Assembly: GCF_000332235.1 (NCBI RefSeq)
Contig: NZ_CM001775.1
Location: forward strand, 3,582,272 to 3,646,271
DNA from: Geminocystis herdmanii PCC 6308
GTDB taxonomy: Bacteria; Cyanobacteriota; Cyanobacteriia; Cyanobacteriales; Cyanobacteriaceae
Direction: 5' to 3'
Length of the DNA stretch: 64,000 nt
In this document: in pieces, positions 2,846 through 13,611 of the stretch
How the letters are laid out: every line of letters starts with the position of its first letter
How positions within the stretch are numbered: position 1 is the stretch's first letter
Notes under the pieces: generated by a model
Told to the model about the DNA's origin: nothing
Database searches by the model: none
Seen by the model: only the letters and a program-made list of their open reading frames with translations
Position numbers and translations under genes: made by a program

Positions 2846-4129
2846 TTAAGCAACTTGAAATTGAGATGTGATAATTTCTTTATCAAAATCAAGAACATCA
2901 GGATAATTTAAAGCATTTTCAATCAATTCAACCATAGAAGTTTTTTGATTATAAAGTATTACTAAATGATCTCTTGCTCTTGTCATGGCTGTATAAATTC
3001 CAGCTTTCTCGGTAAAATCAGCTTCAGGATTACTTAAATTTTCGTGGGCTTTATCTACTCCTGCGATAATTACAGCGTCAAATTCTACACCTTTTAAGGC
3101 ATTCCATGAGTCCACGATAACATAAGGTCGATCGACTACATTTTTATCTCTTTCTTGGGAAGACATAGGTGCATGATTTTCTACTCCTAAGTTTTTTAAT
3201 TCTTGGCTAATTTGTTTGCGAATATTTTTGTCTCTGGGATGAGTTAAAATTCCGATAGAAGATTCTGGATAACTATCTAAAGCTAATTTTACCTGTTCAG
3301 CAATTTGGCGAGACATATCACCAGAATTGACTTGCATTAGTTGAGGTTGAAGATTAGAACTTCTGGATACTTTTTTTAGAGGCTCAATAATACTTCCAAT
3401 ATTTGGAGTATAAATAATTTTACCTTGATTGTCTCTTTCTCTTTTTTCTACCTTCATATTGGCAGAATCTAAAGCAGGAGTTATAAATTTCCATGCTACT
3501 TCTAAAATTTCTGGAGAGTTTCGATAATTGAAATCAAAAACTTGAGATCGCCCTACCACATCTATACCCAGTTTTTTCCAAGTCCATCCATCTTTACGGC
3601 GATGAGATTGTCCATAAACAGATTGGGTATTATCGTACACGAAAAATAAAGAGTTTGTATCTGGATTTAATACAGCTAAAAGAGCTAGATACCACTCATC
3701 GAAAAAATCTTGAGCTTCATCGATTAATATAGCATCATATTTAACTGAAGAATTTTTCATGTGATCGACAAAATTTTCTCTTAATCGTTTACCATGATTA
3801 TCATCTTCATCATGAGCAAAAGTATAGCCAAAGGAATAACTCCATTTATGAAAGGTACTACATTGTTTTAATTCAATACCTTTTTCTTCTAGTTTTGATT
3901 TGAGCCAACCATTCATAAAGCGGTTATAACTTAAAACTAAAATATTAGTCATACCTGCTTCGATAATTTTTTCGACTCGATTACGCAAAACTAGAGATTT
4001 TCCTGAACCTGCTACGCCACGAACTAAAGCATGAGCATTTATACTAACATTTTTAGCTTTATTTTGTTCTTGATCTAAAATTTCACATCCTAATCTTTGT
4101 TCAATCGTATCTTGAAAGTTAATCCACAT
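2846..4129 (-). CDS. Short UvrD/Rep-like superfamily 1 helicase/ATPase (427 aa)
   Basis: Superfamily 1 ATPase with Walker A GVAGSGKS at residues 38-45, Walker B ILIDEAQD near residue 135, and a C-terminal UvrD-like part (NALKGVEFDAVIIAG, then AMTRARDHLVILY near residue 385) supplying motifs V and VI. At 427 residues it lacks the large 1B/2B insertions of full UvrD/Rep proteins (about 700 residues), so it is one of the minimal SF1 ATPases common in accessory loci. There is no nuclease domain. A promoter-like repeat (4163-4200) lies 34 bases before the start codon. The downstream HNH gene is 141 bases away and may not be co-transcribed. Confidence 0.8.
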   Translation of the reverse strand: MWINFQDTIEQRLGCEILDQEQNKAKNVSINAHALVRGVAGSGKSLVLRNRVEKIIEAGMTNILVLSYNRFMNGWLKSKLEEKGIELKQCSTFHKWSYSFGYTFAHDEDDNHGKRLRENFVDHMKNSSVKYDAILIDEAQDFFDEWYLALLAVLNPDTNSLFFVYDNTQSVYGQSHRRKDGWTWKKLGIDVVGRSQVFDFNYRNSPEILEVAWKFITPALDSANMKVEKRERDNQGKIIYTPNIGSIIEPLKKVSRSSNLQPQLMQVNSGDMSRQIAEQVKLALDSYPESSIGILTHPRDKNIRKQISQELKNLGVENHAPMSSQERDKNVVDRPYVIVDSWNALKGVEFDAVIIAGVDKAHENLSNPEADFTEKAGIYTAMTRARDHLVILYNQKTSMVELIENALNYPDVLDFDKEIITSQFQVA

Positions 4130-5410: not shown

Positions 5411-6553
5411 ATGAATCAAATATTAAAAGACTTAACAATTCGTGGTTTTCGTGGTTTTCGAGACATTAAATTATCCGATATGGGTAATATTAATATTATC
5501 GTTGGCAATAACAATTCAGGTAAAACAAGTATTCTTGAAGCTATAGCACTTTTTTGTAACCCACTTGATCCTGTTCGGTGGTTTGAAATCTCAAAACGTA
5601 GTTTTTATTCTGCAAGAGCGTTACGTTATCGACCTGATTTAGAATCGATAAAATGGATTTTTCAAAAACAAGAAATATCCCCGAATAAAGATGAATGTTA
5701 TCAAGAATTAATCATTCAAGCTAATGGTAAAACCACCATTAAAGAATTAACCGCAGAAATAGAGAAAATTTCGGGAATAAGAGTTAGTGAAACTCAAGAT
5801 AATGAGTTAGAAATTGACAACGAAAATACGGTAATAGAAGATGCCATAAACGACATTGGTGGAGAGATAGAATCTCAAGGATTAGAAGTAAATATTAAAG
5901 CCAAATATATCGAAGAAGATAATTTAATTCAGAATCAAGAAATTAAAGAAAAATTCCAATTTTGGGAAGATGAACGTTTTATTTCTAAAAAAAGAAAACA
6001 GGAATTTATTAACACTAATATAGTCTCTCCTGCCTATTCTAATTCCGTTTCGATCGTCTTATCAAGACTTATTTTAGAAGATCAAAAAAACAAAGATGAA
6101 GTATTAAATTTAATCAGATTATTTGATGAACAAATTATAGATATAATGATTCTCACTCCTAAACATTTTGGCAATCTCTATATTAAACACGAAAAATTAG
6201 GATTACCTCCTTTAGATATTTTTGGAGACGGCATCAAAAAAACTATTGCGATGGCTTTGGCGTTACAATCTGCTAAAAATGGCATATTATTAATTGATGA
6301 AATTGAAACCTCTATTCATGTATCCGCTTTAAATGAAATTTTTGCTTGGTTAGTCAAAAGTTGTTTACAACAAAACATTCAATTAATTGTTACAACCCAT
6401 AGTCTTGAAGCAGTGGACGCAATGATTAGTTGCGATAATTCTACAGATAATATTGTCGCTTTTCAGCTTAATAATACTGATAATTCTGTCAAAAGATTTT
6501 CAGGAGATTTGTTAACAAGATTACGTTGGAATAGAGGATTAGATATTAGATAA
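5411..6553 (+). CDS. OLD-like AAA (ABC-type) ATPase (380 aa)
   Basis: ABC/SMC-type ATPase of the AAA_15/AAA_21 kind. It opens with LTIRGFRGFRDIKL, then Walker A GNNNSGKT (residues 32-39), a middle helical insert, a signature-like FGDGIKKTIAMALAL, Walker B GILLIDEIE near residue 295, and a histidine switch TTHS near 328. The following gene starts four bases after its stop and encodes a TOPRIM-like DUF3226 protein. Together they mimic the ATPase and TOPRIM halves of an OLD nuclease split in two. OLD-type and AAA_15+TOPRIM pairs are known in anti-phage systems, but this pairing is not one I can name. It has CGATCG once (about 6053). Confidence 0.8.
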   Translation: MNQILKDLTIRGFRGFRDIKLSDMGNINIIVGNNNSGKTSILEAIALFCNPLDPVRWFEISKRSFYSARALRYRPDLESIKWIFQKQEISPNKDECYQELIIQANGKTTIKELTAEIEKISGIRVSETQDNELEIDNENTVIEDAINDIGGEIESQGLEVNIKAKYIEEDNLIQNQEIKEKFQFWEDERFISKKRKQEFINTNIVSPAYSNSVSIVLSRLILEDQKNKDEVLNLIRLFDEQIIDIMILTPKHFGNLYIKHEKLGLPPLDIFGDGIKKTIAMALALQSAKNGILLIDEIETSIHVSALNEIFAWLVKSCLQQNIQLIVTTHSLEAVDAMISCDNSTDNIVAFQLNNTDNSVKRFSGDLLTRLRWNRGLDIR

Positions 6554-6557
6554 AAAG

Positions 6558-7331
6558 ATGAAATATTGTTACATTGTCACAGAAGGAATCCACGATATAG
6601 AATTTTTAACAAAACTAATCAAAGAATTATTTAGCTTATCCAGAATTAAAAAGCGATCGTTAGTTAATCCATTTTGGGATGAATTAATACCTAAAACATT
6701 CCCTATTAATGATGATTTATTAAAACGTATTCCTGTGCCTTCATTTATTCAAAATGAGCAATATTCTATAGCTTTACATAATGCCACTGGAATTAATAAT
6801 ATTGTTAATACTTTAGAAGAAAGTTTAAGCGTGATTGATACATCAAAATTATTTAGTATTGGTTTAATTTTAGATGCAGATATAGAGGAAAAACCGCAAA
6901 AAAGATTTCAAGATTTAATTCAAGAATTGTCAAAAAAAATAACTCTGATTAATTTTCCATCTTTACAACTTGGGGAAGTTAATATCAGTAATCCTCGATT
7001 TGGTATTTTTATTTTACCCGATAATCAAAATCAAGGTACTTTAGAATCTATTTTAATGGAATGTGCCAAAATTAATTATCCTGATTTACTAGAATCAGCA
7101 ACAGAATATATTGAAGGATTTGATTCAAGTAAATTAACAGCAAAAGAATTAAAAGAATTTAATAAATTAGCGGGTAAGAATAAAGCCATTATATCCAGTA
7201 TGAGTAGCATTTTAAAACCCGGAAAAGCAATCCAAGTTTCCCTACAAGATAATCAATGGATAAATCAAAACAGTCTTGAATTACCCAGTATAATTCTCCT
7301 GCAAAAATTTATTAATGATTTAATTGATTAA
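6558..7331 (+). CDS. DUF3226/TOPRIM-like partner of the ATPase (257 aa)
   Basis: Starts MKYCYIVTEGIHDIEFL, with Glu9 as the first TOPRIM acid, then IGLILDADIEEKPQKRF with Asp106 and Asp108 as the DxD pair. GIFILPDNQNQGTLESIL follows, a stretch I associate with DUF3226. It starts four bases after the ATPase stop, so the two are almost certainly co-translated. The likely role is metal-dependent nucleic-acid cleavage controlled by the ATPase; this is inference from TOPRIM family knowledge. It converges with the methyltransferase gene, with only 15 bases between stops. Confidence 0.7.
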   Translation: MKYCYIVTEGIHDIEFLTKLIKELFSLSRIKKRSLVNPFWDELIPKTFPINDDLLKRIPVPSFIQNEQYSIALHNATGINNIVNTLEESLSVIDTSKLFSIGLILDADIEEKPQKRFQDLIQELSKKITLINFPSLQLGEVNISNPRFGIFILPDNQNQGTLESILMECAKINYPDLLESATEYIEGFDSSKLTAKELKEFNKLAGKNKAIISSMSSILKPGKAIQVSLQDNQWINQNSLELPSIILLQKFINDLID

Positions 7332-7346
7332 GAGTAAAAAGATAGA

Positions 7347-8825
7347 TTATGATAGTTTTATGTAGAACACCCTCTGTATCATTGTCCAATCGTTTAACCA
7401 TTCTCTTTTATTGTAATCTTCAGAAGCAATAAGGCAAAAATTAAGGTTTTCTTCAAAGTTATCCATAAAACTATTTATTCTACTTGTTCTTAATTCATTA
7501 ATATAAGGACTAACACAAATAAAAATATTTATACCTGAGAATGTACTCTCTATTAAAGAAGTAAGATGACTAAGAGAAAATAATTCTACATCCAAAATAT
7601 TAGAAAATATATGAAAAGTTGTATCAACTGATTTATCGATTATAAAATCTTCTTTATTAGTGGAATCTAAATCTTTATTTATAGTAATAATTTCAGCTAA
7701 ATTAGTGAATTTTCGTAAATGTAAAGACGCTCTTGATAGAGCAACCGTTGAAGGTTCAACTAATGTAAATTTATTATTTTGAAAATCCAAATTTTTATTT
7801 TTTAAATAATCACAAAAAACCATACTTCCCATTCCTTGCCCACATCCCCAATCAACAACGTGATTAACTTTAGTTAGAATATTATCATCAATTTTACACA
7901 ACGCATCTAATAATTTAGCTTTGTGCATAGCACTATATCCCACCATATAACGACACAGTTGTTGTTCATTTTCAAGAATGGCTACTCCTCGTTTTAGAGA
8001 ATAGAAAGTTGCTTCAGAATTATCATCTCTCAAACTAAAGTCAAAAGATAATTTTCTTATTTCTTCAAAATTAGCCTCAATTTTTGATAGTGCTTTTGCA
8101 TAATCAGTACCAGTCTCAATTAAAAATACTGGATGCTTATAATCTTGGTAAATTGGTGATACTTTTAAATCAAAATGTTCATCGAGAAGTGTTTGTACTT
8201 TTTTACTAAAAATATCATAATTATCAATACTATAATTAAGGATTTCTGCAAGAAGTGTACTTTTTAAAAATGAATAAGGTTGAGCATTAAAAATATACTC
8301 TTGAATAGTTTTTTTTATATTATAAACACCTTCACTATTAAATTCCCAAAAATGTTTAACAACTTGTAAATAATAATTGATTAAGGTTATAGTTGGCTTC
8401 TCTGAGTTATCTTCTTCAAATTCATCGGCATAAACAAGTTTTTTGATAATGTTTTCTAACCTGTTAGAATAGTCTTCTAGTATTTTAATATCAATGAAAA
8501 AAAGTGCCGCCGCTTCCGTTCGACTACTAACTTGATAATTCTTATTTTTTAAAGTTCCATAAACTAATCTAAACTGAGAAACTAAACCATAACGCTCACA
8601 TACTTCTAACAATAAATTTAAAAAGTTTAGTATTAATAAATCATTAGTATCTAATTGATTAAAAAAACGATTATATTTTGCAATTATATTTTGCAAATCT
8701 CTTGTTTTTTTATGCAAAATGCTATATTTTTGATTCGCAAAATAATCATAGACTTCCTCATAGTTATCTTTTAAAAAAGTAGATAAGGAAGTTTTATCAT
8801 TAATTAATATTAGTTTGTTAATCAT
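7347..8825 (-). CDS. SAM-dependent methyltransferase-like protein (492 aa), last gene of the AlkB-helicase operon
   Basis: The N-terminal 300 residues are helical with no domain I recognise. The C-terminal third has a Rossmann methyltransferase core: VVDWGCGQGMGSMVF near residue 322 is the SAM-binding loop, LVEPSTVALSRA near 353 holds the acidic residue at the end of strand 2, and FICVSPYINELR lies further on. The loop-plus-EPS pattern recalls Rsm22-type rRNA methyltransferases but the rest does not. The gene is 22 bases downstream of the 608-aa gene on the same strand and ends the operon. Substrate (DNA, RNA or protein) cannot be told. No CGATCG occurs in it, unlike most chromosomal genes here. 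Confidence 0.7.
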   Translation of the reverse strand: MINKLILINDKTSLSTFLKDNYEEVYDYFANQKYSILHKKTRDLQNIIAKYNRFFNQLDTNDLLILNFLNLLLEVCERYGLVSQFRLVYGTLKNKNYQVSSRTEAAALFFIDIKILEDYSNRLENIIKKLVYADEFEEDNSEKPTITLINYYLQVVKHFWEFNSEGVYNIKKTIQEYIFNAQPYSFLKSTLLAEILNYSIDNYDIFSKKVQTLLDEHFDLKVSPIYQDYKHPVFLIETGTDYAKALSKIEANFEEIRKLSFDFSLRDDNSEATFYSLKRGVAILENEQQLCRYMVGYSAMHKAKLLDALCKIDDNILTKVNHVVDWGCGQGMGSMVFCDYLKNKNLDFQNNKFTLVEPSTVALSRASLHLRKFTNLAEIITINKDLDSTNKEDFIIDKSVDTTFHIFSNILDVELFSLSHLTSLIESTFSGINIFICVSPYINELRTSRINSFMDNFEENLNFCLIASEDYNKREWLNDWTMIQRVFYIKLS

Positions 8826-8847
8826 AAATGAAATATGTCAATATTTA

Positions 8848-10674
8848 TTACTTATTAAAATTAATTTTGGGATTATTTTCGGAAAATTCCTTTAATTGAT
8901 TTATCGTATCAATAATATCAATTAACTGTTTAGAATCAAAGTCTTTTTTATTTATGTTTAAATGTTGTTTAGCTAAATTCTTTAATTCCTCATAAGTTAG
9001 TTTATAAAAATCAAAACTACTATCACTATTTTTTGATTCAACATTGTTAATAGTCTTATCAGTATTTGTATTTAATAATTCTTCTTTATTTAATTTATTT
9101 TTAGTATTTTCCTTTCTTATATTATCATCTTCTTTCATATAAGAATTATTTTTACAATGGATAATTTCATTATTTAATTCCTCAATTTTTTTCTCATAAT
9201 CAGATTTGATTTGATTTTTTTGACGTTCTTTTTCTTCAATAAAATCATCTTTTAATTTATTATTGATTATATTAAAAAACCATTCTTTTAGTAAAGGCTC
9301 TAAAATATCAGTAATATTTTTCAATATAGCATTTTCATCTATGGCATCTTCTATTTTATTTTTTTTTAACGGAAAAAAATCTAATAATTCTAGGAGATAA
9401 CCCTTAATTCTCGTATAAAGATTCTTAAATATTTTTTCTAAATCTTTTGTATAAATACTATTAGAGTATTCATCTGATAAAAATTCAGTTCTTTTTTGAG
9501 TATAAATTACTGTATCTAAAATTTTATAGTAATCATAACTATCATCTTGGGATTGATTTTCAAATTTAGGTAGCCATTCATCTAAGTAGGAAAATATAGC
9601 AACTTTTGATAATTGTTTTTTATTAAAAGTTCTTTGATAAGCACTTTCTATTAAATAGTAATCCATTTTTGAGTTAAGCTCAAACTTGACTTTTAAATTT
9701 GCATCAATGTCGTCAAATTTATACTCATTACGAAAACTTTTATAACCATTGTATAAACCAAAAACTAAAGCAATTTGTTCAATGTATTGAAATTTATTCT
9801 CTAAAATTTCTCGCAATAATGTTTCAGATGTATATGGTTTATCATTACTTCCATACTGAGCTAAAAAGCATAATAAATATAGTTCTCTATTATGCTCTAC
9901 TAGGTTATCTAAGTTTTGAATTTTATTTTTTAGTCCACCAATTTCCAGATGAATTTGTTTTTCCTCAGCAACACGCTTTAATTCTTCTATTGATAATGGT
10001 TTGTGCTTTATTTCTTTTTGTATTAATTTCCAATCATCTCTTTCGGAATCGGTTAGTAAACCAGAATAATTAAAACCATCTTTTAATATTTTTTTTGCTT
10101 TTAATTTCTCAAAATCACTAGATATTTCTGAATTGATATTAGAAACAAAAGACAAAAAATCGGCAACATTGACTTCTTGACAAACAGAACGCATTAAAGA
10201 AATGCCACCTAGTAAATTATCAAATTTAGAGATATTGTTAGAATAATCTTCTGGTGCTATCTCTTGGTTTTGTGACTCAAAATTGATTTCACTAAAATTA
10301 CTAGGTTCTTCAATCTGAAAAAGAAAGTCTGGGAGGAATGCAGTTCCTTTATTAATTTTATAGCTAATATTTTCTTGATTTTCTTTACTTGTGAACCAAA
10401 TAGTTTTGATCCTAGAAATAGGCAAAGGTTTAGACAATAATTTAAGGTCTTTTTCTTCAGTTTCCACTAAGAAATTTTCATCTTCTGTATCGATAATTAA
10501 CTCTAAACTACAGTCACAATCTTTGATCCATTTACACTGTGATATGAGGATGGCATTAAAATTTGATTGAATATCGTGTATACGGTTTTGATAACAATTA
10601 GCAGAACAAATCAAAGCACTTGAATAATAATGAGATAAATTCTCATAATTGAGAGGCAAATAATATGTTTTCAT
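8848..10674 (-). CDS. Unrecognised 608-aa protein with Cys-rich N-terminus and C-terminal coiled coil
   Basis: I do not recognise the family. The first 60 residues contain several Cys (ICSANC, then CKWIKDCDC) that could bind metal. A long helical middle follows. Residues about 465-515 (EEKERQKNQIKSDYEKKIEE and onward) form a clear coiled coil, then a polar linker, and then FYKLTYEELKNLAKQHLNI near residue 560, which resembles a SAP/HeH-type helix-extended-helix nucleic-acid-binding motif. The gene begins 7 bases after the helicase stop and precedes the methyltransferase by 22 bases, so it is the middle gene of one transcript. Very AT-rich, Asn/Lys/Ile-rich. Perhaps a scaffold or DNA-binding subunit; this is a guess from context. 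Confidence 0.6.
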   Translation of the reverse strand: MKTYYLPLNYENLSHYYSSALICSANCYQNRIHDIQSNFNAILISQCKWIKDCDCSLELIIDTEDENFLVETEEKDLKLLSKPLPISRIKTIWFTSKENQENISYKINKGTAFLPDFLFQIEEPSNFSEINFESQNQEIAPEDYSNNISKFDNLLGGISLMRSVCQEVNVADFLSFVSNINSEISSDFEKLKAKKILKDGFNYSGLLTDSERDDWKLIQKEIKHKPLSIEELKRVAEEKQIHLEIGGLKNKIQNLDNLVEHNRELYLLCFLAQYGSNDKPYTSETLLREILENKFQYIEQIALVFGLYNGYKSFRNEYKFDDIDANLKVKFELNSKMDYYLIESAYQRTFNKKQLSKVAIFSYLDEWLPKFENQSQDDSYDYYKILDTVIYTQKRTEFLSDEYSNSIYTKDLEKIFKNLYTRIKGYLLELLDFFPLKKNKIEDAIDENAILKNITDILEPLLKEWFFNIINNKLKDDFIEEKERQKNQIKSDYEKKIEELNNEIIHCKNNSYMKEDDNIRKENTKNKLNKEELLNTNTDKTINNVESKNSDSSFDFYKLTYEELKNLAKQHLNINKKDFDSKQLIDIIDTINQLKEFSENNPKINFNK

Positions 10675-10681
10675 AGTCTTT

Positions 10682-11665
10682 TTATAATGTTATTGTTTCG
10701 TAAGTATTGGGGTGTAAACCATCGGGAACTGTATCACACAATAAAAATAGATTTCTTCTTGTTCTAGTCAAAGCGACATAGTAATCATTTTCGCTAACTA
10801 CATACAAATTCTTAATATTATCCCTATATAGGTGAAATTTAGGTATTATTACAGTGTCAAATTCTAAACCTTTACAGGACTTGAATGTTGTAATGTGTAT
10901 GTTTTCTATCGTTTCAATTTCGTCTCCGTCATGATAATAACGAGAATAATTAGCACCAATTTCCTTGAGAATTGACTCATAGTAGTCAACCTGTACCTGC
11001 AAAGGTACTAAAATTACCAGATTCTCCGTAGATGGGTTATCTTCAATTAATTCCTTTAAAACATTTTTCACTTTATCATCATTATCCGCTATTACTAATT
11101 TTGGTTTTTGTCCTCTTACTGCCAATTGTTCATTAATGACAAAATGAGGGAAAATGTTTTTTACAAATCTTAGAATTTCCCCTGAGTTTCTAAAATTTTC
11201 GTAAAGCTCATAAGTTTTATTATAGAATAACTCTTGAAGTTGAGATTCTGAACATCCATGGTTATATAGAGATTGTCTCTCATCCGCACCATACGACACC
11301 ATTCTTGCATATTCTCTGATCGTTTGATATTTTTGCAGAGAAACGTCTTGTGCTTCGTCAACAATTATTTCATCATATTGTGATGGTTTCATTGTCCATT
11401 TATAGGTCCTAGCAATACTACTACTTGCATTGTCGTCTTCTCTTTCAGCAACATTTCCAAGATAATATTCTAAAGACTTTGTGTAGGTTAACAATAAACT
11501 TCGTCTTCCCCTACGTTGCCAATTTTCAATATGTCGCCACAAAGATACTACTGTTTTGCCTGTACCTGGTCCTCCTTTCAAATGAAATGGTTGGTCGGTA
11601 AAAACGGCAGCTTGCTGATCTGGAGTCAAGTCATCGATTTTTGGTAATCTAAATTGGTATGGCAT
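10682..11665 (-). CDS. Minimal superfamily 1 helicase/ATPase (327 aa)
   Basis: Begins with a Q-motif-like LTPDQQAAVF, Walker A GGPGTGKT at residues 31-38, Walker B IIVDEAQD near residue 103, then ITTFKSCKGLEFDTVIIPKF and YYVALTRTRRNLFLL as motifs V and VI of the UvrD/RecD-like group. At 327 residues it is under half the length of UvrD and is not related closely to the 427-aa helicase at 2846-4129 (different spacing and flanks). It starts 23 bases after the AlkB gene stop and ends 7 bases before the 608-aa gene, so it is the second gene of the operon. Likely moves on or remodels nucleic acid for the other members. Confidence 0.8.
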   Translation of the reverse strand: MPYQFRLPKIDDLTPDQQAAVFTDQPFHLKGGPGTGKTVVSLWRHIENWQRRGRRSLLLTYTKSLEYYLGNVAEREDDNASSSIARTYKWTMKPSQYDEIIVDEAQDVSLQKYQTIREYARMVSYGADERQSLYNHGCSESQLQELFYNKTYELYENFRNSGEILRFVKNIFPHFVINEQLAVRGQKPKLVIADNDDKVKNVLKELIEDNPSTENLVILVPLQVQVDYYESILKEIGANYSRYYHDGDEIETIENIHITTFKSCKGLEFDTVIIPKFHLYRDNIKNLYVVSENDYYVALTRTRRNLFLLCDTVPDGLHPNTYETITL

Positions 11666-11688
11666 AAATTAATTGTTCAATAATATAT

Positions 11689-12348
11689 TTAACTATAAAT
11701 AACTCTAAAGGTTAAATTGATTCTTGGTGTAACCGCCTTTTTTGTTTTAGGTATTTGATGTAACCAATATTTTTGAGTATCCCCAGCCATTAATAAAAAG
11801 CTCCCGTTAGTTAGCTCAATTGCATAACTCTCTGGATTATTCTTATCTTTAGACTTGAACATAAAACGCCGTGAACCTCCTAAACTTACAGAACCGATAA
11901 TCGGTTTTTTTCCTAGTTCTGGTTCATCATCACTGTGCCAAGCTACACTATCATTACCATTTCTATATAAGTTCAACAATACACTATTAAATTTTACTGG
12001 AGAAAAGCACTCAATTTTATTTTTAATTAAGATTAAAGGTTTAATCCAATTGAGAGGTTGGAGGGTAATTCCTGAATAAACATAAGTCTTATCTGAATCC
12101 CCATACCATGCTGTTAACCGAGGAATAGGCATAGTTTTACCGTAGAGTTTGATTGTCTCCTGTTTCCAAGCTATTTTCTCCTGTAACTCCAGAAAAAGAT
12201 TCTTACTTTGGTCATCGGTAAAAAATTTACGATAAAGAGTGATCTCACTATTTTTCAGAGGAATTCTTTCTCCCTTAACTTTTGATGAGTTAGAAGGATA
12301 AATCTTTGTTTGATAGTTATTGGAAAAGATACTTAACTGCTTGGACAT
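11689..12348 (-). CDS. alkB: AlkB-family 2-oxoglutarate/Fe(II) dioxygenase (219 aa)
   Basis: The C-terminal half holds the full AlkB signature: RLTAWYGD near residue 77, NLYRNGNDSVAWHSDDE with iron ligands His138 and Asp140, GSVSLGGSRRFMFK, then YWLHQIPK with the third ligand His197, and RINLTFR with 2-oxoglutarate/substrate Arg209 and Arg215. The GSVSLG and LGGSRRF segments are typical of the bacterial/eukaryotic ALKBH2/3-like branch, which removes 1-methyladenine and 3-methylcytosine from DNA or RNA. All catalytic residues are present, so it should be active. It is the first gene of a four-gene minus-strand run with a helicase, an unknown protein and a methyltransferase, an unusual setting for AlkB. 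ATG start at 12346-12348. Confidence 0.88.
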   Translation of the reverse strand: MSKQLSIFSNNYQTKIYPSNSSKVKGERIPLKNSEITLYRKFFTDDQSKNLFLELQEKIAWKQETIKLYGKTMPIPRLTAWYGDSDKTYVYSGITLQPLNWIKPLILIKNKIECFSPVKFNSVLLNLYRNGNDSVAWHSDDEPELGKKPIIGSVSLGGSRRFMFKSKDKNNPESYAIELTNGSFLLMAGDTQKYWLHQIPKTKKAVTPRINLTFRVIYS

Positions 12349-12397
12349 AAATAATTTATAAATTCTGTTAAAATTTACCTAGTTTTGAAAAACTCAG

Positions 12398-12507
12398 TAT
12401 ATAGCAATTCTCGTTTTGGTGAGGTACAAAAATTGTCTTTGAAAGGCAAGAGGCAATAGGCAATAGGCAAAAAAAATGTACCTCATAATTTTAAAAAACG
12501 CTATATA
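12398..12507. repeat. MITE-like nested inverted repeat carrying four heptamers
   Basis: Outer ends TATATAGC and GCTATATA, inner arms TGAGGTACA (12420-12428) and TGTACCTCA (12477-12485), and between them four AGGCAA(G/T/A) heptamers at 12444-12471. It lies in the 324-base gap between the divergent alkB and DUF1848 genes; the rest of the gap shows nothing else. Confidence 0.65.
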
Positions 12508-12672
12508 TTCATCACTGCTTATCATTTAATTTATCATTAATTGCTCTGAAATTTACCTTAAAAGCCTCATTTTTTCGTTTTAAATTGGACATCTCGTTAC
12601 TTGTGTTGAATTCTCTTTTTTCGTTAAAATTAAAATCAAAAACCTTTATTTTCTTGAAAAAAAAAATTAATT

Positions 12673-13611
12673 ATGATTATAAGTGTAAGTCGTCGCACCG
12701 ATATACCAGCTTTTTATGCTAAATGGTTTATAAATCGTATTCTTAGTGGTTATTGTACGGTTCCGAATCCTTTTAACCAAAAGCAGATTTCTCATATTTC
12801 TTTAAAGCCCGAAGATGTAAATATTCTTGTTTTTTGGACGAGAAATCCGAAGCCATTATTCCCTTATTTAGAGGAATTAAATCAACGAGGTTATAATTAT
12901 TATTTTCATTTTACAATCACGAATAATCCTGTTTTCTTGGAGACGAATAACCCTCCTCTGGAAACTGCCATTAAAGTCTTTCAAGAATTAGCTGATTTTA
13001 TCGGTTATGATAAAGTAATTTGGCGTTACGATCCTATTGTTTTAAGTAATTTAACTGATGTTGAGTTTCATTTGAATAATTATGAATATATTGCTAAAAA
13101 GTTGTCCAATTATACTCAGAGATGTGTGATTAGTATTTTAGATAGCTATTCTAAAAGTAATAAACGACTTAAGCTACTAGAAAAAGAACATGGTTTTCAC
13201 TTATTTACATTAGAAAATAATAAAGATAAGTTTGATAAATTATTGGTAAATATTGGAAAAATTGCGAAAGACAAAAAACTTGAAATATTTAGTTGTGCAG
13301 AAGAAATTGATTTAGAAAGCTATGGAATAAAACATGGAAAATGTATAGATGATGAATATATTGAAAAAGTGTTTTATAAAGACGTTATTCATAAAAAAGA
13401 TCCTTCACAAAGAGAAGCCTGTGGATGTGTAGTTAGTAGAGATATAGGTATGTACGATACTTGTTTATTTGGTTGCCAATATTGTTATGCAACGACAAAC
13501 TTCGATAAATCAAAGGAAAATAATAAACTTCATAATCCTGAATCATCCTCTCTAATTGAATATTATCAAGAGCCTAAAAACGACAACTTAAATCAGTTAA
13601 CACTGTTTTGA
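12673..13611 (+). CDS. DUF1848 protein with a C-terminal radical-SAM Cys motif (312 aa)
   Basis: Starts MIISVSRRTDIPAFYAKWF and continues with VFWTRNPKPL, YYFHFTITNN and IWRYDPIVL, a pattern I recall for DUF1848. Near the end are CGC (250, 252) and CLFGCQYC (Cys264, 268, 271), an exact CxxxCxxC motif that in radical-SAM enzymes binds the 4Fe-4S cluster; extra Cys at 208 and 224 may also serve. In classic radical-SAM proteins this motif is near the N-terminus, so the order here looks permuted. Members near spore-photoproduct-lyase-like families are thought to work on nucleic acids, but the substrate is unknown. The gene is divergent from alkB (324 bases apart). No CGATCG within it. Confidence 0.75.
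   Translation: MIISVSRRTDIPAFYAKWFINRILSGYCTVPNPFNQKQISHISLKPEDVNILVFWTRNPKPLFPYLEELNQRGYNYYFHFTITNNPVFLETNNPPLETAIKVFQELADFIGYDKVIWRYDPIVLSNLTDVEFHLNNYEYIAKKLSNYTQRCVISILDSYSKSNKRLKLLEKEHGFHLFTLENNKDKFDKLLVNIGKIAKDKKLEIFSCAEEIDLESYGIKHGKCIDDEYIEKVFYKDVIHKKDPSQREACGCVVSRDIGMYDTCLFGCQYCYATTNFDKSKENNKLHNPESSSLIEYYQEPKNDNLNQLTLF

Follow-up and report, generated by a model that had tools for sequence, protein, structure and literature searches.

A little-described methyltransferase family with AlkB or DUF1848 neighbours and a putative mobile cassette in Geminocystis herdmanii

DarT is described as ADP-ribosylating viral DNA, a mark that is presumed to be taken off again by its NADAR or Macro partners (PMC9503650). 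Here we analysed a 64,000-nucleotide stretch of the cyanobacterium Geminocystis herdmanii PCC 6308 (the window, meaning the whole stretch), in which an S-adenosylmethionine (SAM)-dependent methyltransferase (MTase) is encoded together with an ADP-ribosyltransferase (ART) protein, a helicase, an AlkB-family dioxygenase and a DUF1848 protein. Like DarT/DarG, this locus has an ART and would follow the logic of a modification paired with a reversing enzyme, but its ART belongs to PF22546 and not to PF14487, the DarT domain, which gave no match in the 608-aa ART protein at E ≤ 0.1. Moreover, neither the four operon genes nor their scanned neighbours matched Macro, NADAR or ADP-ribosylglycohydrolase, and the reversible mark proposed here is a methyl group. 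We do not count the cassette as a member of DarT/DarG; in the literature searched, DarT with its removing enzyme is the closest logic found in print. The MTase belongs to a little-described family, and the AlkB or DUF1848 beside it in unrelated bacteria suggests an unstudied route of marking and unmarking nucleic acid, perhaps in conflict with phages.

Single parts of the locus resemble other described systems. The UvrD-like helicase matches the GajB models of Gabija in part (E 4.7e-19), but the cassette has no GajA-like nuclease: GajA is an ATPase-TOPRIM fusion, and next to the cassette the ATPase and DUF3226 domains are encoded by two genes, with PDC-M38 as their best match. Restriction-modification systems and DISARM also place a SAM-dependent methyltransferase next to helicases, whereas motif IV of DNA methyltransferases, [DNS]PP[YFW], is absent from the window MTase on reading its sequence, no DNA-methylase family of Pfam or PADLOC matches it, and no cognate nuclease was found in the cassette. 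The AlkB shares sequence and catalytic residues with ALKBH3-like repair enzymes, but AlkBs linked to this MTase family adjoin a dedicated methyltransferase, more than once in mobile settings. In PADLOC, the NERD-UvrD candidate C3a187 matches two MTase-helicase fusions of the family (E 1e-31 and 2e-25), although only the L063 match (residues 296-864) takes in its NERD part, and the L061 match (442-826) does not. RTasDUF1848, which joins DUF1848 with defence reverse transcriptases, matches the window DUF1848 (E 1.9e-50), although no reverse transcriptase was present among the scanned cassette neighbours. No description of this gene set was found in our literature search.

The features of the locus are listed below.

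7347..8825, minus strand: predicted class I SAM methyltransferase (MTase), 492 aa; cassette gene and recurrent core (alignment, partners)
8848..10674, minus strand: predicted ART protein, 608 aa; cassette gene (PF22546, E 9.3e-24)
10682..11665, minus strand: minimal superfamily 1 (SF1)/UvrD-like helicase, 327 aa; cassette gene (Pfam and motifs)
11689..12348, minus strand: AlkB-family 2-oxoglutarate/Fe(II) dioxygenase, ALKBH3-like, 219 aa (PF13532, E 1.4e-35; ALKBH3, E 1.7e-40)
11675..12615, no strand: stretch without counterpart in the sister locus L020, comprising AlkB and its upstream region (blastn breakpoints, junction read)
12673..13611, plus strand: DUF1848 protein, 312 aa, with a C-terminal CX3CX2C, divergent from the operon; cassette gene (PF08902, E 1.5e-100)

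A preliminary description had seen a four-gene operon at 7347-12348 on the minus strand, and the coordinates of the open reading frames (ORFs) confirmed four same-strand genes with gaps of 23, 7 and 22 bases. The single transcript that it proposed is reasonable here, but no second instance of the four-gene set turned up in the material searched: checked for the four-gene order, the sister locus L020 proved to have three of the four genes and no AlkB. The last three operon genes recur there in the same order, which is beyond chance. Promoter and terminator counts were at chance level.

Methyltransferase relatives and their partners

Relatives of the MTase were collected from overlapping genome samples. 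A two-MTase profile found them in 2 of 338 further genomes of the phylum (L057 and L058), a seven-member profile retrieved 9 of 252 genomes of the order (three known and six new), and a final search of 107 genomes yielded a single further match, G047 (E 8e-4, spanning 75 positions). Phyla beyond the cyanobacteria were reached through plasmids, phages and viral contigs, with hosts mostly unnamed, and the first viral scans, which used two-row MTase and helicase alignments, found nothing. After merging L060 and L062 as duplicates and leaving out two matches as too weak, G047 and L068 (21 bits, with neither AlkB nor DUF1848 nearby), we tallied 15 distinct loci from five cyanobacterial families, Moraxella plasmids and phage-like contigs. 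These loci are not all independent: L020 is closely related to the window, and L080-L082 are closely related to one another. The partners were not selected for, because the searches queried the MTase alone.

AlkB stands beside the MTase at eight of the 15 loci (L058, L059, L078-L083), and DUF1848 without AlkB occurs at six (L020, L057, L061, L063, L064, L067); both are found only in the window, and none of the 15 lacks both. The earlier idea that the operon writes or erases methyl marks gains independent support from the eight other distinct loci at which AlkB adjoins a relative of this MTase. DUF1848 had been overlooked. Of the homologue searches suggested with it, that with the 608-aa protein returned one relative (L020) in the species genomes and that with the 492-aa MTase returned these recurrent loci.

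Gaps of 3 to 40 bases separate the seven intact MTase-AlkB pairs. In L058 the MTase is followed after 3 bases by AlkB, and two Moraxella osloensis plasmids of one strain carry the same region with MTase then AlkB (L059 2868-11033, and L060). All six new loci of the order have AlkB beside the MTase, which in L083 is only a fragment. The intact AlkB beside this truncated MTase (8088-9085, genome G541) would fit loss of the writer and retention of the reverser. If 5000 genes and 1.1 AlkBs per genome are assumed, the rough chance of finding AlkB as the immediate neighbour is 4e-4 per locus. As for the other partner, L057 has its MTase and DUF1848 genes tail to tail. In viral contigs and on a phage scaffold from faeces, DUF1848 precedes MTase-helicase fusions (L061, of which L062 is a duplicate, and L063), and a later scan gave DUF1848 with the MTase in L064 and L067, the MTase of L064 being fused to a DEAD/Helicase_C helicase.

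As a control, we inspected unlinked AlkB loci of the window's family (14.5-18 kb each) and found the MTase or DUF1848 at 0 of 12; two further short loci likewise had neither, although one of the 12 (L041) has a helicase-like ORF adjoining AlkB (E 4.7e-7).

In the MTase tree, the DUF1848-linked L057 nests among AlkB-linked members (96/96). Its well-supported branches require two or more partner changes, with details unsure owing to several long branches. Three groupings are common to the AlkB and MTase trees, namely L058 with L059, L078 with L079, and L080-L082, which is expected if the pairs were inherited or transferred together. L058 and the Moraxella pair join in both trees, as would be seen had the two genes crossed between phyla as a unit.

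The C-terminal domain of the window MTase has GCG, EPS and HxFSNxLD motifs, and an alignment of 14 members contains 10 invariant columns, including the motif I GCG, the E and S of EPS, and the H, S and D of HxFSNxLD. Its designation as a SAM methyltransferase was upheld as class I, though the Pfam match is weak (Methyltransf_31, E 0.05, below cut-off); the best hints came from general methyltransferase models and, weakly, from a PHROG family of phage tRNA methyltransferases (E 0.003).

Sister locus and cassette genes

We scanned a collection of species genomes with the 608-aa protein, a search whose reach is close relatives only, and its sole relative there was at L020, in a metagenome-assembled genome of the same cyanobacterial genus (G392/G395). 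The order helicase-ART-MTase is the same as in the window, with a helicase-ART gap of 7 bases in both genomes and DUF1848 divergent upstream; identities are 95% for the helicase, 80% for the ART protein, 87% for the MTase and 93% for DUF1848. AlkB is absent from the cassette locus of L020. By blastn, similarity stops at window position 12616 and resumes at 11674, and L020 has about 257 unrelated bases in place of window 11675..12615; to judge from this alignment, AlkB is an addition to the cassette in the window genome. Within that stretch, tandem GCCTATT-type heptamers lie upstream of AlkB (12445-12468), where shuffling expects 0. A script detected no inverted repeat upstream of AlkB, and a repeat finder gave weak arms only.

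Synonymous divergence (dS) between the window and L020 is 0.17-0.23 for the DUF1848, helicase, ART and MTase genes (0.17 for the helicase, 0.23 for DUF1848), whereas the two flanks compared have values of 0.62 and 1.17. Because dS is low in the cassette and high in these two flanking genes, either the four genes were exchanged jointly, as a single cassette, at a later time than the flanks, or the flanks were replaced. DUF1848 occurs in exactly 2 of 15 genomes of the family, the same two that have the helicase-ART-MTase triad, and on this distribution and its dS we assign it to the cassette.

The window AlkB resembles human ALKBH3 (E 1.7e-40), and its catalytic residues are intact, as had been described: HxD, the second His and RxNxTxR are all kept. 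The HxD...H iron ligands and RxNxTxR are likewise intact in 9 of 9 linked AlkBs, the window's included. In the family, AlkB was found once each in 14 of 15 genomes, and the window copy is the only AlkB detected in its genome. The AlkBs of three same-genus genomes (G392, G391, G145) are 72-80% identical mutually and 54-60% identical to the window copy, which in the AlkB tree occupies a long branch beside the unlinked copies of the family (93/96). Its low identity, its long branch and its being the sole AlkB detected in the genome indicate that it is a diverged or acquired copy, placed ahead of the cassette helicase and standing in for the usual AlkB. Another same-genus AlkB, that of G393 (L044 12917-13552), is far from all others (43-47%), which would fit frequent replacement of AlkB within the genus. 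A search of seven AlkB-linked genomes showed a second AlkB in two and none besides the linked one in five; in G157, a genome with DUF1848, no AlkB was detected. Assignment of the AlkB to PADLOC CARF_2OG was rejected, as the match is unspecific and four unlinked AlkBs score alike (138-181 bits).

The CX3CX2C motif, a radical-SAM signature, is kept at the C-terminal end of all seven DUF1848 copies, that of L064 being a C-terminal piece only. Matches to radical-SAM models were subthreshold (PF04055, E 0.011, for L061; a viperin model, E 0.02, for the window copy). It is possible that DUF1848 is a permuted radical-SAM enzyme that fills the place of AlkB. No mention of DUF1848 was found in the literature searched, though publications beyond it may have one.

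The 608-aa protein had been assigned to no family and credited with a probable HeH helix. The latter has no Pfam match at E ≤ 0.1, while residues 3-120 match PF22546 (2CompART) at 84.4 bits against a curated cut-off of 27, over profile positions 1-119 of 120; the copy in L020 scores 85 bits. By this N-terminal domain, the protein is predicted to be an ART. The domain is followed by a helical middle and a hypervariable C-terminus: relative to L020, the first 120 residues are 95% identical and the last 113 aligned codons 40%. Searches for relatives of the protein found none in plasmids or viral contigs and one chance-level match in phages, with none at E 0.01; a weak match to its C-terminal coil was present in G096 (E 3.5e-4). 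PF22546 occurs in 1 of 386 genomes of the phylum and 2 of 388 of the order, in overlapping samples, and neither the origin of the name 2CompART nor the source of the family was found in the literature searched.

The 327-aa helicase retains its ATPase and helicase motifs, in line with its first designation as SF1. Its relatives are distant and were found in 15 of 194 genomes (the window's own counted) and in five plasmid records; the proteins beside two of them bear no resemblance to the window ART protein. On a Cereibacter plasmid (L037 5413-9187), an SF1 helicase, a DarT-like ADP-ribosyltransferase and an ADP-ribosylglycohydrolase are encoded consecutively.

Genomic surroundings

Near the operon, at window 5411-7331, an AAA ATPase gene and a DUF3226 (TOPRIM-like) gene match PDC-M38A (E 4e-76) and PDC-M38B (E 9e-16) of PADLOC, which is a known candidate system for defence. 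The ATPase/TOPRIM pair that had been read as part of an island is indeed present, but it is probably a separate insertion, because its stretch has no counterpart in L020. An HNH gene was also reported in the neighbourhood, and no HNH family was found among the scanned neighbour ORFs, which were part of the window's ORFs. A second SF1 helicase (2846-4129) and an ORF with a CHAT domain (364-1167) lie near the cassette.

The Moraxella MTase-AlkB pair has viperin upstream, and downstream genes for a single-stranded DNA-binding protein, DuOB, DUF488 and mSLOG-DUF4326. DUF4326 and SLOG domains have been tied to the processing of ADP-ribose derivatives (PMC9503650), which makes their presence a loose tie to the window ART. 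Near the DUF1848 and MTase genes of L067, an ORF (1694-2728) resembles a diversity-generating reverse transcriptase by reading only, and in L061 a TerB-like gene (10424-10726, E 2e-7) directly follows the MTase-helicase fusion.

Readings of the locus

We tentatively read the locus, with somewhat less than an even chance of being right, as a mobile nucleic-acid-modification cassette in which the MTase would be the writer and AlkB or DUF1848 the reverser, joined by helicase and effector parts and probably serving in conflict with phages. The co-transfer, the recurrent pairing, the fusions, the partner swaps, the intact motifs and the control at unlinked AlkB loci argue for such a module, and the defence-type surroundings, namely the PDC-M38-like pair and the viperin near the Moraxella pair, point to phage conflict. 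The MTase would methylate single-stranded or unwound nucleic acid at an AlkB-reversible position, such as N1 of adenine or N3 of cytosine, and AlkB, or a radical-SAM-like DUF1848 instead, would erase that mark where it falls on nucleic acid of the cell itself. The helicase may open or load the substrate, and the ART may be a second effector; helicase and effector parts would be interchangeable around the module of MTase plus AlkB or DUF1848. Its probable use would be against phages or competing elements, and the logic would be one of toxin and enzymatic antidote, as in DarT and the enzyme that removes its mark.

Several observations weigh against this proposal. The full gene set was seen in one genome only, and several loci consist of the MTase-AlkB pair without helicase or ART. 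The window AlkB, missing from the sister locus, lies 2,863 bases from the MTase with two genes between, and its closest kin in the tree are unlinked AlkBs. Three MTases (L080-L082) lack the motif I aspartate, one member is truncated, and no model in PADLOC matches the MTase.

An unlikely explanation, albeit a serious contender, is that DNA, rRNA or tRNA receives a useful mark from the MTase and that AlkB or DUF1848 does no more than repair the off-target lesions, with no need for a role in defence. Eukaryotic DNA methyltransferases and ALKBH2 provide a precedent for such a clean-up pairing, which would explain the tight standalone MTase-AlkB pairs with unrelated flanks in five cyanobacterial genomes and fits the weak PHROG match to a tRNA methyltransferase; it is at odds with the patchy distribution in the order, the plasmids and phage-like contigs, the MTase-helicase fusions and the ART linkage. 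We regard as rather improbable a working defence pair of helicase and ART, adjusted by the MTase and DUF1848, to which the window AlkB is an incidental neighbour: the 7-base spacing in both genomes, the L020 locus without AlkB and the distant Cereibacter locus favour it, but DUF1848 and the MTase recur without the ART (L057, L061, L063, L067), and AlkB recurs with the MTase. That the genes are chance neighbours in a defence island, as the exact four-gene set in one genome might suggest, is very improbable given the conserved order, the low dS versus divergent flanks, the fusions and the MTase-AlkB pairs, whose recurrence already contradicts it.

The writer-and-reverser cassette also has a bolder form, which we hold to be doubtful: a new class of mobile conflict modules in which the MTase would inflict a toxic, base-pair-blocking methyl lesion, AlkB or a circularly permuted radical-SAM DUF1848 would be interchangeable antidotes, and larger versions would add helicases, fused or neighbouring, and effectors such as the ART. 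Should the writer-and-reverser reading hold, AlkB, known from textbooks for repair, would serve some bacteria as the antidote to a dedicated methyltransferase or as its eraser. This would help to explain why extra AlkB genes are patchily distributed and would place DUF1848 in a functional context for the first time.

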